The notes beneath the pieces were generated by a model. That model ran no database searches. It worked only from the letters and a program-made list of their open reading frames with translations, and was not told where the DNA came from. A stretch of DNA of 64,000 nucleotides from Candidatus Poribacteria bacterium (GTDB lineage: Bacteria; Poribacteria; WGA-4E; PCPOR2b): positions 186,001 to 250,000 of the forward strand of contig JAPPKS010000012.1 in assembly GCA_028819845.1 (NCBI GenBank), in the 5' to 3' direction. A program made the translations under genes and the position numbers. Within the stretch, counting starts at the first letter, position 1. The number at the start of each line of letters is the position of its first letter. Shown in pieces: positions 1,729 to 33,413 of the stretch.

Positions 1729-2967
1729 TCAAAATTTTTCCTGCAGTTTCGGATGGTTATCAAGCACTTTGATGAGCGTTCGTACGAGTTTTTCAGGGTC
1801 GTGGCGGATTACCGTTAGGGGAACTCCATTCTCAACAATAACCGTATCTCGAATAAGATCTGATTCCACAACGTGGATATCACCGAGATTGTCCTGACCG
1901 CGGTCGTAGAAGATTTGCACCTTGGAGGGATCTGCCATCTGCTTGGTCTCATCAGAGAGTTGCGAAATATGTTTGGTGAGATTAAGCAGCGAATCCGTAA
2001 CATGTTTCGGATGTTCTTGCAGCGCGGAAAGGGCTTCTTCCGTGTGCATCTTAATGCGTGTAAACTGCTCCATGAGCTCCTTTTGGACATAGTTGTTGAT
2101 TAGTGTTTCAGGAGCAGGTTGATTATTCGCGATAATATAATCTATTGAAAGATTTGCATGATTGATGATTGCTTGCACGTGGTCGCTGACTGAGTAGCCG
2201 TCAGTTTCGCCGGGCTGAGACATCACGTTGCAGATGTAAACTTTCATCGCTTTCGACGATCGGATTGCTTCAGCGATTCCCTTGACAACAAGATTAGGCA
2301 TGATGCTTGTGTATAGGCTGCCGGGGCCGATTATAATGACATCGGCATTTACAATTGCGTCGTCAGCCTCTTGATTGGCAGTGCATTGATATGATTTGTT
2401 CGGTGGGTGATGATTCTTGCCGTTCTCGCGGGGTTCAAGAAATATCCGCCGTATTGGTTCCCGATTCTCACGCTCCGGAATTTTGGATTCTCCGCGGACT
2501 ATCTCGCCATCGGCGAGTTCCGCGCACAATACGGTGTAATTCAAGCTAACGGGGATGATTTTCCCGCGTACCGCGAGCAATTTTGATGCTGCCCGGATTG
2601 CTTTTGGGAAACTGCCGCCATTCAATTCGGTGAGGGCGGTTAAGAGTAGGTTGCCGACCGTATGTCCGCCGAGATGGCCATCATTTGAAAAGCGGTATTC
2701 AAATAGGCTGTCTAGCTCATCTGCCTCGGACAGGGCAACCAAGAGTTTACGAATGTCACCCGGCGGCGGCACATCAAATTCCTGGATTAATCTTCCGCTG
2801 CTGCCACCGTCGTCAGAGACTGAAACTATTGCTGACAGATTGTCAATATCAATAATTCCTGTCCGCCCGGGCGTCCTGTCTGTGTATTGTTTAATCCCAC
2901 TTAAGAGAGACGATAATCCTGTTCCTCCGCCTATACACACGAGCCTTAATGCGCTTCCACCTTCCAT
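1729..2967 (-). CDS. yvcK: YvcK/GlmR-family UDP-GlcNAc-binding gluconeogenesis factor (CofD-like fold)
   Basis: 412 residues with the family N-terminal CIGGGTGLSSLL nucleotide loop, VSVSDDGGSSGR, GDIRKLLVAL and IIIGPGSLYTSIMPN. YvcK (renamed GlmR in Bacillus) binds UDP-GlcNAc and tunes carbon flow between gluconeogenesis and cell-wall precursor synthesis. The ATG is preceded on the minus strand by GGGAGGG at good spacing. The C-terminal region of about 90 residues after residue 320 is longer than in many homologues. It sits about 200 bases downstream of the phosphoglucosamine mutase on the same strand, linking it to amino-sugar nucleotide metabolism. Confidence 0.9.
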   Translation of the reverse strand: MEGGSALRLVCIGGGTGLSSLLSGIKQYTDRTPGRTGIIDIDNLSAIVSVSDDGGSSGRLIQEFDVPPPGDIRKLLVALSEADELDSLFEYRFSNDGHLGGHTVGNLLLTALTELNGGSFPKAIRAASKLLAVRGKIIPVSLNYTVLCAELADGEIVRGESKIPERENREPIRRIFLEPRENGKNHHPPNKSYQCTANQEADDAIVNADVIIIGPGSLYTSIMPNLVVKGIAEAIRSSKAMKVYICNVMSQPGETDGYSVSDHVQAIINHANLSIDYIIANNQPAPETLINNYVQKELMEQFTRIKMHTEEALSALQEHPKHVTDSLLNLTKHISQLSDETKQMADPSKVQIFYDRGQDNLGDIHVVESDLIRDTVIVENGVPLTVIRHDPEKLVRTLIKVLDNHPKLQEKF

Positions 2968-28281: not shown

Positions 28282-29616
28282 ATGGAGTATCATGCATGGT
28301 TTCAATGCAGTGAGGGCTGTGACGAAAAGTATCCGCTCAATGAAGTCATATACCGATGCCGGCAATGCAATGGTTTATTAGAGGTAAAACACGACATAGA
28401 CCTACTTAGGCGTCGAAGCGGCGCAGCGTGGAAGGAAGTGTTTAATGAGCGGTATATGCGTACGCAATACCCTTATGGCAGCGGCGTCTGGGGAAAAAAG
28501 GAGTTGGTGTGTCCGAATATTGACAATGAAAATGTAGTATCCATGTATGAAGGCGGCACCAATCTGTTTTGGGCTGAACGGTTTGGCAATGAGATTGGCC
28601 TTTCCAATCTCTGGATAAAGCAGTGCGGAAATAGTCATACCGGTTCTTTTAAAGACTTAGGTATGACCGTGTTAGTTTCCATGGTGAAGCAGGTGGTAAA
28701 ACGCGGCGGCGACATCCGCGTTGTCATGTGCGCTTCTACCGGCGACACTTCCGCTTCACTCGCCGCATATGCCGCAGCGGCAGGCATTCCGGCTGTAATC
28801 CTTTTACCGCGGGACAAAGTATCCCACGCGCAGCTCATTCAGCCGATAGCCAATGGCGCAATCACGCTTGCGTTAGAAACGGATTTTGATGGCTGTATGT
28901 CCGTAGTCCAGCAGCTTGCTGAAAGGAAAGATTTCTATCTAGCTAATTCCATCAATTCGCTCCGAATTGAAGGACAAAAGACAATCTCGATTGAGTTAGT
29001 TCAACAGTTTGACTGGGAAGCACCAGATTGGGTCATTATACCGGGCGGGAATTTGGGTAATGTAACAGCGCTCGGCTTGGGATTTTTAATCATGCGAGAT
29101 TTAGGGATTATTGATCGGCTGCCCCGTATTGCTTGCGCTCAATCTGCCAAAGCGAATCCGCTGTACGAAAGTTTCCAAAACGACTTCAAGACGTTTGACC
29201 CGGTCACGGCGCGGGCAACAATTGCAACGGCAATTCGAATTGGCCATCCAGTTTCGGTAAAAAAGGCGATAAATGTATTAAAAAAATTCGACGGAATTGT
29301 AGAGCAAGCCACGGAGGATGAGTTAGCGAATGCCGCGGCGAGTGCAGATCGGACAGGGTTGTTCAACTGCCCGCATACAGGGGTTGCACTCGCAGTGCTA
29401 CTGAAAATGGTCGAAAGCAGACTAATACAACGCGATGATAGAGTAATCGTTATCTCGACAGCTAACGGTCTCAAATTTCCGGAATTTAAGATTGACTACC
29501 ACCAAAATAAATTGAAAGAAGTTCAACCTCAACATGTTAACTCGCCGATTACAGTCGAACCAAATTATGACACAGTGATGAAAACGATTACGCATCACCT
29601 GAAAACCTTGAACTGA
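28282..29616 (+). CDS. thrC: Threonine synthase (paralogue 1), PLP-dependent
   Basis: 444 residues. The N-terminal zinc-ribbon-like piece has CSEGC then CRQC. A fold-type II PLP domain follows with the Schiff-base lysine K124 in SHTGSFKDLGM, the phosphate/substrate loop ASTGDTSASLAAYAAAAG and the glycine loop PGGNLGNVTALG. This is the threonine synthase rather than serine dehydratase subgroup. It converts O-phosphohomoserine to threonine. Its own promoter precedes it, and the convergent YjhG-like gene ends 37 bases beyond its stop. Confidence 0.88.
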   Translation: MEYHAWFQCSEGCDEKYPLNEVIYRCRQCNGLLEVKHDIDLLRRRSGAAWKEVFNERYMRTQYPYGSGVWGKKELVCPNIDNENVVSMYEGGTNLFWAERFGNEIGLSNLWIKQCGNSHTGSFKDLGMTVLVSMVKQVVKRGGDIRVVMCASTGDTSASLAAYAAAAGIPAVILLPRDKVSHAQLIQPIANGAITLALETDFDGCMSVVQQLAERKDFYLANSINSLRIEGQKTISIELVQQFDWEAPDWVIIPGGNLGNVTALGLGFLIMRDLGIIDRLPRIACAQSAKANPLYESFQNDFKTFDPVTARATIATAIRIGHPVSVKKAINVLKKFDGIVEQATEDELANAAASADRTGLFNCPHTGVALAVLLKMVESRLIQRDDRVIVISTANGLKFPEFKIDYHQNKLKEVQPQHVNSPITVEPNYDTVMKTITHHLKTLN

Positions 29617-31856: not shown

Positions 31857-31885
31857 TTGACAATGTTGGATGGTAGTGATAGTAT
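31857..31885 (+). promoter_or_regulatory. Strong sigma-70-like promoter of the threonine synthase 2 leader
   Basis: Perfect TTGACA (31857-31862), 17-base spacer, TAGTAT (31880-31885). It lies almost 290 bases before the ATG at 32178, leaving an unusually long untranslated leader. In the 529-base spacer 31649-32177 I see this promoter and the attenuator-like element described next. Confidence 0.65.
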
Positions 31886-32060
31886 TAAAAAGTTTAGATC
31901 ACGGCGGAGATTGAGTGAGGGATTGACCGTGGGCACGAAACGTATTTATTTGACGTGATTAAAACAAAAAATAATTGATCTTACCAAATTATATAGCGCA
32001 CCACCCAATCTATCGTCGAGTATTGCTGCCGTATTGTTCCTTCCAATGCGTTGGAGTGAA

Positions 32061-32153
32061 AATAGGCAAATTCTGAATTGAAATGACAGTGCTTTTTGAT
32101 CGTATGTTCCTTTAAATGCCTATTGTCGCATAAGTGATGGTAGGCTTTTTTTT
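32061..32153 (+). terminator. Attenuator-like leader: intrinsic terminator with competing antiterminator
   Basis: GCCTA (32118-32122) pairs with TAGGC (32141-32145) around an inner TCGC/GTGA stem and an ATAA loop, followed at once by eight T residues (32146-32153): a classic intrinsic terminator 12 bases before the ribosome site AAGAGGAGAG. The upstream segment AATAGGCA (32061-32068) is perfectly complementary over 8 bases to TGCCTATT (32117-32124), which includes the left arm of the terminator. The two pairings exclude each other. I find no T-box core and no threonine-rich leader peptide, so the sensor is unknown. Confidence 0.55.
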
Positions 32154-32177
32154 CACGAACACCAAGAGGAGAGAAAA

Positions 32178-33413
32178 ATGGAAGAAAAGGTATTGGGATT
32201 GAAGTGCCGCGAATGCGATAGGAAATATCCTAAAGAGCCCATTCACGTTTGCGAATTTTGTTTTGGGCCGCTGGAAGTGGATTACAACTATGAAACAATC
32301 CAGAAATCCATTTCACGGAAATCCATTGAACGAGGTCCTACAAACCTCTGGCGATATATCGATTTGTTGCCTATTGACGGCGAACCTACCGATGGGTTGA
32401 ATACCGGATTCACACCGCTGATTCGCGCGAAAAATTTGGAAGCAGCCCTCGGTGTCAGAGAATTGTACGTGAAAGATGACTCCGTGTGCCATCCGACGTT
32501 GTCGTTCAAGGACCGGGTGGTTTCTGTGACGCTGAGCAAAGCGAAAGAGTTCGGGTTTGATACCGTGGCATGCGCCTCGACCGGAAATCTCGCAAACTCT
32601 GTCGCAGCGAACGCCGCAGTCGCCAATTTTGACTGTTTCATTTTTATCCCGGCCGACCTCGAAATGGCGAAAATCGTTGCATCGCTGGTTTACGTACCGA
32701 CGGTGGTCGGCATTATGGGAACGTATGACGATGTCAACCGGCTGTGCAGCGAGATTGCGGGTGTATATCCGTGGGCATTTGCGAACATCAACACCCGCCC
32801 ATTCTACTCTGAGGGGTCGAAAACTTTCTGTTATGAAATCATTGAGCAACTCGGTTGGGAAACACCTGATCACATAATTGTACCGGCGGCAGGCGGATCA
32901 CTTGTCACCAAAGTGGGAAAAGCGCTTAAGGAATTCCACATATTGGGATTGATTGATGAGCCAAAAACAAAGATTCATGTTGCTCAAGCTGAAGGCTGCG
33001 GGCCAATTGTCACAACGTTGAAGGAAAACAGTGATTTCGTCAAACCGGTCCGCCAGCCAAATAGCATTGCAAAATCACTCGCAATTGGAAATCCCGCGGA
33101 CGGAATATATGCCGCCGCAACGGTACGCAATTCAGGCGGGCGAGGAGAACATACAACTGATGAGGAGATTGTCGACGCAATTAAACTCCTCGCAGCGACT
33201 GAAGGCATCTTTACGGAGACGGCGGGCGGCGTCACGCTCGCAGCAACACAGAAACTTATCGAGAGTGGACAAATAGGGCGGGACGAGTCCATCATTGTCG
33301 GTATTACAGGGAATGGGCTGAAAACTATCGAAGCACTCGACGGTAAAGTTTCGGAACCGCATGTCATCCAACCTCAACTCAATGCGTTTCGGAAATTGAT
33401 GAAAACACTATAA
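32178..33413 (+). CDS. Threonine synthase-like PLP enzyme (paralogue 2)
   Basis: 411 residues. A complete N-terminal zinc ribbon (CREC then CEFC) precedes a fold-type II PLP domain. K111 in PTLSFKDRV is the expected Schiff-base lysine, with CASTGNLANSVAANAA as substrate loop and VPAAGGSLVTKVGKALKEF as phosphate loop. It is only distantly related to the synthase at 28.3 kb. The ATG has the site AAGAGGAGAG and lies directly after an attenuator-like terminator. recD2 starts 19 bases downstream. It could make threonine or act on a related phosphorylated amino acid. Confidence 0.85.
   Translation: MEEKVLGLKCRECDRKYPKEPIHVCEFCFGPLEVDYNYETIQKSISRKSIERGPTNLWRYIDLLPIDGEPTDGLNTGFTPLIRAKNLEAALGVRELYVKDDSVCHPTLSFKDRVVSVTLSKAKEFGFDTVACASTGNLANSVAANAAVANFDCFIFIPADLEMAKIVASLVYVPTVVGIMGTYDDVNRLCSEIAGVYPWAFANINTRPFYSEGSKTFCYEIIEQLGWETPDHIIVPAAGGSLVTKVGKALKEFHILGLIDEPKTKIHVAQAEGCGPIVTTLKENSDFVKPVRQPNSIAKSLAIGNPADGIYAAATVRNSGGRGEHTTDEEIVDAIKLLAATEGIFTETAGGVTLAATQKLIESGQIGRDESIIVGITGNGLKTIEALDGKVSEPHVIQPQLNAFRKLMKTL

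Follow-up and report, generated by a model that had tools for sequence, protein, structure and literature searches.

A conserved, predicted attenuator before a ThrC-like gene of Candidatus Poribacteria, with methionine as the likeliest signal in relatives

Introduction

What does the leader in front of a gene annotated as threonine synthase sense, and by what means? The question is raised by a locus of Candidatus Poribacteria in the window, by which we mean the whole 64,000-nt stretch of DNA that was analysed; the genome holding it (4.6 Mb) is labelled G000 among the genomes compared. An earlier note on this sequence described a transcription attenuator with mutually exclusive folds, suggested comparing transcript ends with and without threonine and, having recognised no known riboswitch core, considered that the sensor might be new. 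Our analysis indicates that the attenuator is real as anatomy and is conserved. To judge from the sequences of relatives, a leader ORF that is translated probably serves as its sensor, and the likeliest signal in those relatives is methionine.

The trp, his, thr and ilv leader-peptide attenuators have the same layout, namely a promoter, a short ORF, a cluster of control codons, an antiterminator strand at the end of the ORF and a terminator before the gene; what differs here is that the repeated codon is that of methionine, that the gene is ThrC-like and that the phylum is Poribacteria. Methionine genes are likewise controlled at transcription by the S-box riboswitch and the Met T-box, whereas the present leader has no Rfam match. 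The candidate cysteine leader peptides of Actinobacteria, as described in the accessible text of PMC1262725, resemble our case in that a leader ORF ahead of sulfur amino acid genes carries codons for a sulfur amino acid, but the codons are Cys rather than Met and no terminator hairpins are conserved; for the methionine operons of the species studied, the same text finds no conserved RNA structure upstream. In the literature searched we found no Met-codon attenuator of a ThrC-like gene, and neither the Met leader nor the ThrC clade described below appears in the accessible text of PMC5764234, PMC7311316, PMC1262725, PMC2965389 and PMC1779556 or in the other papers covered, subscription papers being outside the scope of the search.

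Results

Leader anatomy in the window

The features of the leader and of the gene are collected in Table 1. The promoter had been called perfect; its position, its −35 box (TTGACA, 31857-31862, a perfect match) and its 17-nt spacer stand, but the −10 box (TAGTAT, 31880-31885) matches the consensus at 4 of 6 positions, which makes 10 of 12 overall. The leader is about 286 nt long, close to the almost 290 bases first estimated, and it ends as described in a terminator stem and eight T residues, about 12 bases before the ribosome site. The upstream 8-mer AATAGGCA (32061-32068) is indeed the exact complement of TGCCTATT (32117-32124), which overlaps the left arm of the terminator. The match widens to AGTGAAAATAGGCAA, the best upstream partner that the left arm has. 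Since 13 of 300 shuffles pair as well, the window by itself goes only weakly beyond chance and relatives are needed. The fold of the whole leader is not unusual (shuffle z-score −1.5). No Rfam covariance model, whether of a riboswitch, a T-box or any other RNA, reached its gathering score in the window or in 20 related loci, which agrees with what had been noted from the letters.

Table 1. Coordinates of the leader, the gene that it precedes and a second ThrC-type gene in the window
Feature	Position	Strand	Remarks
Sigma-70-type promoter TTGACA-17-TAGTAT	31857-31885	+	from sequence; relatives have promoter-like boxes at the corresponding place (by eye)
TTG-started ORF LTVGTKRIYLT, then stop	31923-31958	+	same frame as the next open frame and one UGA upstream of it; 3 Thr codons of 11
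Open frame, 3' half SIAAVLFLPMRWSENRQILN, then stop	31959-32081	+	matches end of relatives' leader ORF; no standard start before the conserved part
Antiterminator 5' strand AGTGAAAATAGGCAA	32055-32069	+	inside leader ORF end; kept in family f1
Switch strand TGCCTATTGTCGC	32117-32129	+	terminator left arm, also antiterminator 3' strand
Intrinsic terminator stem-loop	32118-32145	+	stem of 12 pairs, G-U counted; 4-nt loop
T8 tract, predicted transcript end	32146-32153	+	directly after terminator stem-loop
Shine-Dalgarno AGAGGAG of the gene	32165-32171	+	about 12 nt past T8
PLP enzyme annotated thrC (TIGR00260)	32178-33413	+	ThrC-like clade, N-terminal zinc ribbon, own active-site signature
Second ThrC-type gene	28282-29616		2.5 kb upstream; NSHTGSFKDLG, EGQKT

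Conservation of the terminator and the antiterminator

Upstream regions were gathered for 74 Poribacteria orthologues, nine from the window's own family (f1, 9 genomes), two from its sister family (f2, 2 genomes), 55 from f3, three from f4, four from a distant family (f5, 4 genomes) and one from f8. A BLAST search of the leader against 97 genomes gave as its top foreign matches segments lying before the orthologous gene in the f1 members G008, G007 and G002, with 72-74% identity over the last ~97 nt and, in G002, 69% over ~130 nt. The terminator, GCCTATTRTCRC...TAGGC followed by at least six T, stands 28-124 nt before the orthologue in 9/9 f1 and 2/2 f2 genomes, and no terminator of this kind was found upstream of the orthologue in the 55 f3 and 3 f4 genomes. 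Searched against IMG/VR, the same DNA pattern gave 0 matches. In the nine f1 genomes it has one further copy, in G003 (L191, ~2465-2507, minus strand), which is near-identical but which we set aside, as it follows a LamG-type gene and has the look of an ordinary terminator; it suggests a copied or mobile terminator. By eye, the leaders of genus g2 (L036, L038, L039), with 110-124 nt between terminator and gene, have a further inverted repeat in this gap; where the gap is ~30 nt the repeat is absent.

The antiterminator strand is kept along with the terminator. AATAGGCA or a G-U-compatible form of it precedes the terminator in most f1 and f2 leaders, with mismatches in G006 and G009, and in 8/9 f1 leaders the left arm finds its best partner in this segment, always equally far away, a pairing that 0-13 of 300 shuffles equal; the exception is G003 (122/300). 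It is because the pairing is conserved in the f1 leaders that it stands above chance. In an alignment of 11 leaders, 99.2% of the cells are paired in the terminator and 94.2% in the antiterminator, compared with 27-62% in slid versions. Compensatory changes, which the earlier note had hoped to see as covarying pairs on both alternative stems, do not bear it out: the alignment holds none in the terminator and one pair in one sequence in the antiterminator, not above shuffles, and the left arm is nearly invariant, its variants being almost only G-U. Thus the case for an attenuator with mutually exclusive folds, as that note had proposed it, is one of architecture, which is kept in 11/11 genomes of two families, compensatory base changes being nearly absent.

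The distant family f5 has a similar layout in leaders whose sequence is unrelated to f1. Three of its four genomes (G076, G079, G080) have a terminator. The ORF end GGCGGTGGGC of G079, which has no similarity to f1, is complementary to the terminator arm GCCCACTGCC, and 1/300 shuffles is as good; G076 and G080 have a left-arm partner at the same position, the ORF end, but it is no better than in shuffles (152/300 and 111/300). In the fourth genome, G072 (L193), a Met-rich ORF is present and the terminator is absent. We noticed by eye a 9-nt complementarity there between TTGGATGGC, at the Met codons, and GCCATCCAA, beside the ribosome site of the gene, an arrangement that may be a translational variant.

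The leader ORF and its Met codons

In 12 of 15 leaders (8/9 f1, 4/4 f5) a short ORF with 4-5 in-frame Met codons is found, so that the possibility of a new riboswitch-like sensor gives way to a Met-rich leader ORF; the cluster is absent from the window copy, G009 and G012, and the f2 candidate ORFs have only 2 ATG. The f1 ORF has 36-46 codons and runs through ...TMYMPGMGIAAxVSMR... in 8/9 leaders. Its stop codon lies mostly just behind the antiterminator strand, within the strand in G004 and just before it in G003. The f5 ORFs, with starts chosen by eye, are MNCRHSVPQIDRMAMPSGMRAMRMPHDGHGGGRCR (G079), MTSAHFRRHWMAMPSGMRMNDPRMPRHRN (G072), MTQTRTASATMRSATMVMRRGMRAWRMPLSVECGSSVC (G076) and MSLQFRPLVSMRMSLAWSMRRMRRLLRGGSG (G080).

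Several features indicate that the frame is kept. When eight f1 leaders are aligned as nucleotides, blind to frame, 7/7 gap runs are multiples of 3, and frame 0 holds 0 stops compared with 5 and 20 in the other frames. Eleven leader ORFs hold 62 ATGs, 61 of them in frame (11 being starts) and 1 out of frame. All 12 Met-type ORFs have 4-5 Met after the start, with P from 0.016 to 0.0003 each on a background of 2.2%, the f1 members being related and thus not independent. On the other hand, selection at the amino acid level is not apparent beyond frame and Met, since the synonymous fraction is not raised (0.29 in the leader ORF versus 0.32 and 0.31 in the other frames) and a codon substitution test gives the leader frame no advantage. 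Moreover, the Met codons of the f1 cluster sit in CATG words, which are self-pairing and hairpin-forming, and the opposite strand is also Met-rich, so that a cause in RNA structure is possible in f1; in G072 and G080 of f5, some in-frame ATGs lie outside CATG words. For Thr, the amino acid of the earlier note's proposed comparison, the relatives' leader ORFs show no enrichment (0-5 codons, no cluster).

Other Met-rich matches were dropped. Those of G052 and G058 in f3 lie, by eye, out of frame inside the upstream gene, and a third f3 match, in G021, has a near-identical peptide; three among 63 loci outside Poribacteria (L089, L113, L114) were taken as chance. A search ahead of the hom, metK, MetY and MetH/HMT-type genes of 32 loci yielded no Met-type leader, the sole match, L301, being dropped for its place at the far end of the locus.

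What of the window's own leader? Its ORF ends in ...SIAAVLFLPMRWSENRQILN and a stop, clearly the counterpart of ...GIAAVAVSMRARRSENRQI and a stop in relatives, and it retains ORF end, antiterminator and terminator. It has no Met cluster (one Met codon, at the sole ATG, 32046), no standard start and no equilibrium switch. Either this ORF is decayed, or it uses an unusual start codon, or there is an assembly error; with the Met cluster and the standard start missing, the switch in the window may be decayed or may answer another signal.

Folding with a ribosome on the leader

We folded the leaders thermodynamically with the ribosome front at set positions, a calculation that takes no account of pausing, of base pairs forming around the ribosome or of actual rates. 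In the unoccupied leader the terminator forms with P at least 0.98 in 14/14 cases. With the ribosome front in mid-leader its predicted P falls below 0.5 in 10/14 leaders, and with the ribosome at -70 it is at least 0.99 again in 14/14. The leaders that show no equilibrium switch are those of G000 (the window), G002, G009 and G012. Out of 40 shuffles of the upstream part, the number matching the minimum is 0 in G005, G006, G008 and G079, 2 in G001, G004, G012 and G076, 3 in G002 and G007, 4 in G003, 20 in G080, 26 in G000 and 32 in G009. Walking the ribosome codon by codon along 11 leaders, we find that permissive codons, those at which P is below 0.5, overlap with the Met region of G001, G003, G004, G005, G006, G008 and G076 and partly with that of G079; G007 and G080 have hardly any permissive codons there, and G002 has them nowhere. 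In the window, so long as the right arm is not yet made, the left arm is predicted to pair with upstream sequence: for a ribosome that has yet to reach the antiterminator strand, P is 0.90-0.97 at most positions and 0.55 at one, so that only a kinetic switch would be conceivable there.

The gene and its neighbours

The gene scores 265 bits against NCBIfam TIGR00260, above the cut-off of 167. Among 106 distinct sequences of its clade the motifs are HPT-SFKDRVV, GNLA, EGSK, GSL and ETAGGVT, at positions mostly 93-100% conserved, whereas 28 other ThrC have NPTGSFKDRGM, GNTS, EGQK, AGN and EPASAAS at the same positions. The clade does not carry the ThrC signature NPTGSFKDRG, EGQK, NAGN, and HPT-SFKDRVV, EGSK and GSL are 98-100% conserved in its 106 sequences. 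A CxxC...CxxC ribbon is present in 106/106 clade members and in 0/28 other ThrC; in the window's protein, the N-terminal zinc ribbon (residues 9-33) gives a match to Pfam NinF of 35.3 bits, with a cut-off of 27.5. FastTree support for the clade is uninformative after midpoint rooting and is left out of the argument.

Outside Poribacteria, by pattern-based assignment, a ThiS/MoaD-type carrier lies directly downstream in 51/61 orthologue loci of sufficient length. Of the 51 loci that reach 2 kb upstream, 19 show an E1 pattern and 12 a JAB pattern; of the 51 that reach 2.3 kb downstream, 21 have a second ThrC. The genes of L122 run in the order ThiF-family E1, JAB, clade gene, ThiS-family carrier, canonical ThrC and 'proposed homoserine kinase'. 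In the window's genome the carrier is not adjacent to the gene; other contigs hold a JAB protein and a ThiS-family carrier that comes with a PALP fragment and a PAPS reductase. A sulfur cluster of Poribacteria (L242, L243, L257) holds cysM-type, PAPS-reductase-type, MoaD-type carrier, JAB and NIL-type proteins, the names given mostly by eye, with L251 and L272 scanned. Some relatives have another ThrC beside hom, and the product of the second ThrC-type gene in the window resembles the plant-type threonine synthase.

Cysteine and methionine are made by protein-thiocarboxylate routes in the CysO-CysM-Mec+ and HcyS-MetY-HcyD/F systems. The loci seen here are like these in linking a ThiS/MoaD-type carrier, an E1 and a JAB protein to a PLP enzyme, but the PLP enzyme is of the ThrC kind rather than CysM or MetY. 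Given the clade's own active-site signature and its carrier linkage, the gene is probably not a housekeeping threonine synthase, and its enzyme may make homocysteine in a carrier-dependent manner. PF01053, sought in 7 genomes, gives only weak matches in G000, G008, G072 and G079, HcyBio/DUF39 is found in 0/12 genomes and PF02574 (MetH/HMT) in 12/12; some of the genomes are incomplete MAGs. At least one further homocysteine pathway is still to be discovered according to the accessible text of PMC5764234, which names other organisms.

Discussion

How could such a leader work? Computation gives the conservation of the leader, its kept frame, its in-frame Met clusters, the position of its stop codon and its predicted folds; translation, stalling at Met, termination and the reaction of the enzyme are our inferences. 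The best reading, which we hold with moderate confidence, is a ribosome-mediated transcription attenuator. The leader ORF would be translated while the leader RNA is being made. Where no ribosome is on the leader the terminator would form and the gene would be off, and the same would hold where a ribosome at the stop codon of the leader ORF covers the antiterminator strand. When charged tRNA-Met is short, the ribosome would stall in mid-ORF at the clustered Met codons and leave the antiterminator strand free to pair with the left arm of the terminator, so that the polymerase would read into the gene. The gene product would probably be a ThrC-like enzyme of sulfur-carrier-dependent homocysteine, and hence methionine, synthesis; if it is a carrier-dependent homocysteine synthase, control by methionine would have a purpose.

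Several other explanations have to be weighed against this. That there is no regulation at all, the terminator being leaky or decayed at least in the window's genome, we hold to be unlikely: G000 indeed lacks equilibrium switch, start codon and Met cluster, but while the right arm is still unmade its left arm is predicted to be paired upstream for most ribosome positions, and no part of the leader is better conserved (74% identity to G008) than that with the terminator, the antiterminator strand and the ORF end. Distinctly unlikely, to our mind, is a structured RNA, whether riboswitch or protein-binding leader, in which the CATGC-GCATG-CATGC hairpins of f1 would be an aptamer and the Met codons a by-product of palindromes. 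On alignments read by eye, the Met region of f1 is conserved as nucleotides and able to form two competing hairpins, and the Met-rich opposite strand fits such a cause as well. However, the frame survives all indels, some in-frame ATGs of G072 and G080 lie outside CATG words, the window's leader is without the Met region yet has terminator and antiterminator strand, and Rfam offers no match in the window or the 20 loci.

We give little credence to an arrest peptide, where the nascent Met-rich peptide would stall its ribosome on binding Met, SAM or a sulfur compound and not through codon starvation. A motif like MxMPxGM is similar between f1 and f5, and the stalling zone of the per-codon walk fits this idea too, but the residues between the Mets vary and nothing positive speaks for arrest. 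Very improbable is attenuation of the classical kind, by threonine (or Ile), of a genuine threonine synthase, the reading to which the earlier note leaned; neither the leaders of relatives nor the gene itself support threonine as the signal. The thrC call by TIGR00260 and the three Thr codons of the window's short TTG ORF do speak for it; yet this ORF stops ~97 nt short of the antiterminator strand, a distance too great for masking it, and is not seen in relatives, whose leader ORFs have no Thr cluster, the signature and neighbourhood of the gene are unlike those of ThrC, and the window has another ThrC gene.

More generally, we propose, tentatively and as a possibility that we would not yet count on, that in Poribacteria a Met-codon attenuator is set over a ThrC-derived, sulfur-carrier-dependent homocysteine synthase, an enzyme common to Nitrospirota, Omnitrophota, Rokubacteria and others. 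If this is true, the enzyme would supply the homocysteine step in G000, G008, G072 and G079, which are without a clear MetB/MetY/MetZ-family enzyme or DUF39, and it would be one of the missing homocysteine routes. For leader-peptide control, a Met-codon attenuator would extend the known range into a phylum that is uncultured and associated with sponges. Of greater weight is that the regulation, taken with the neighbourhood, points to a new function for a gene listed in databases as threonine synthase, and a possible missing route to homocysteine would become directly testable with the purified enzyme and its carrier.
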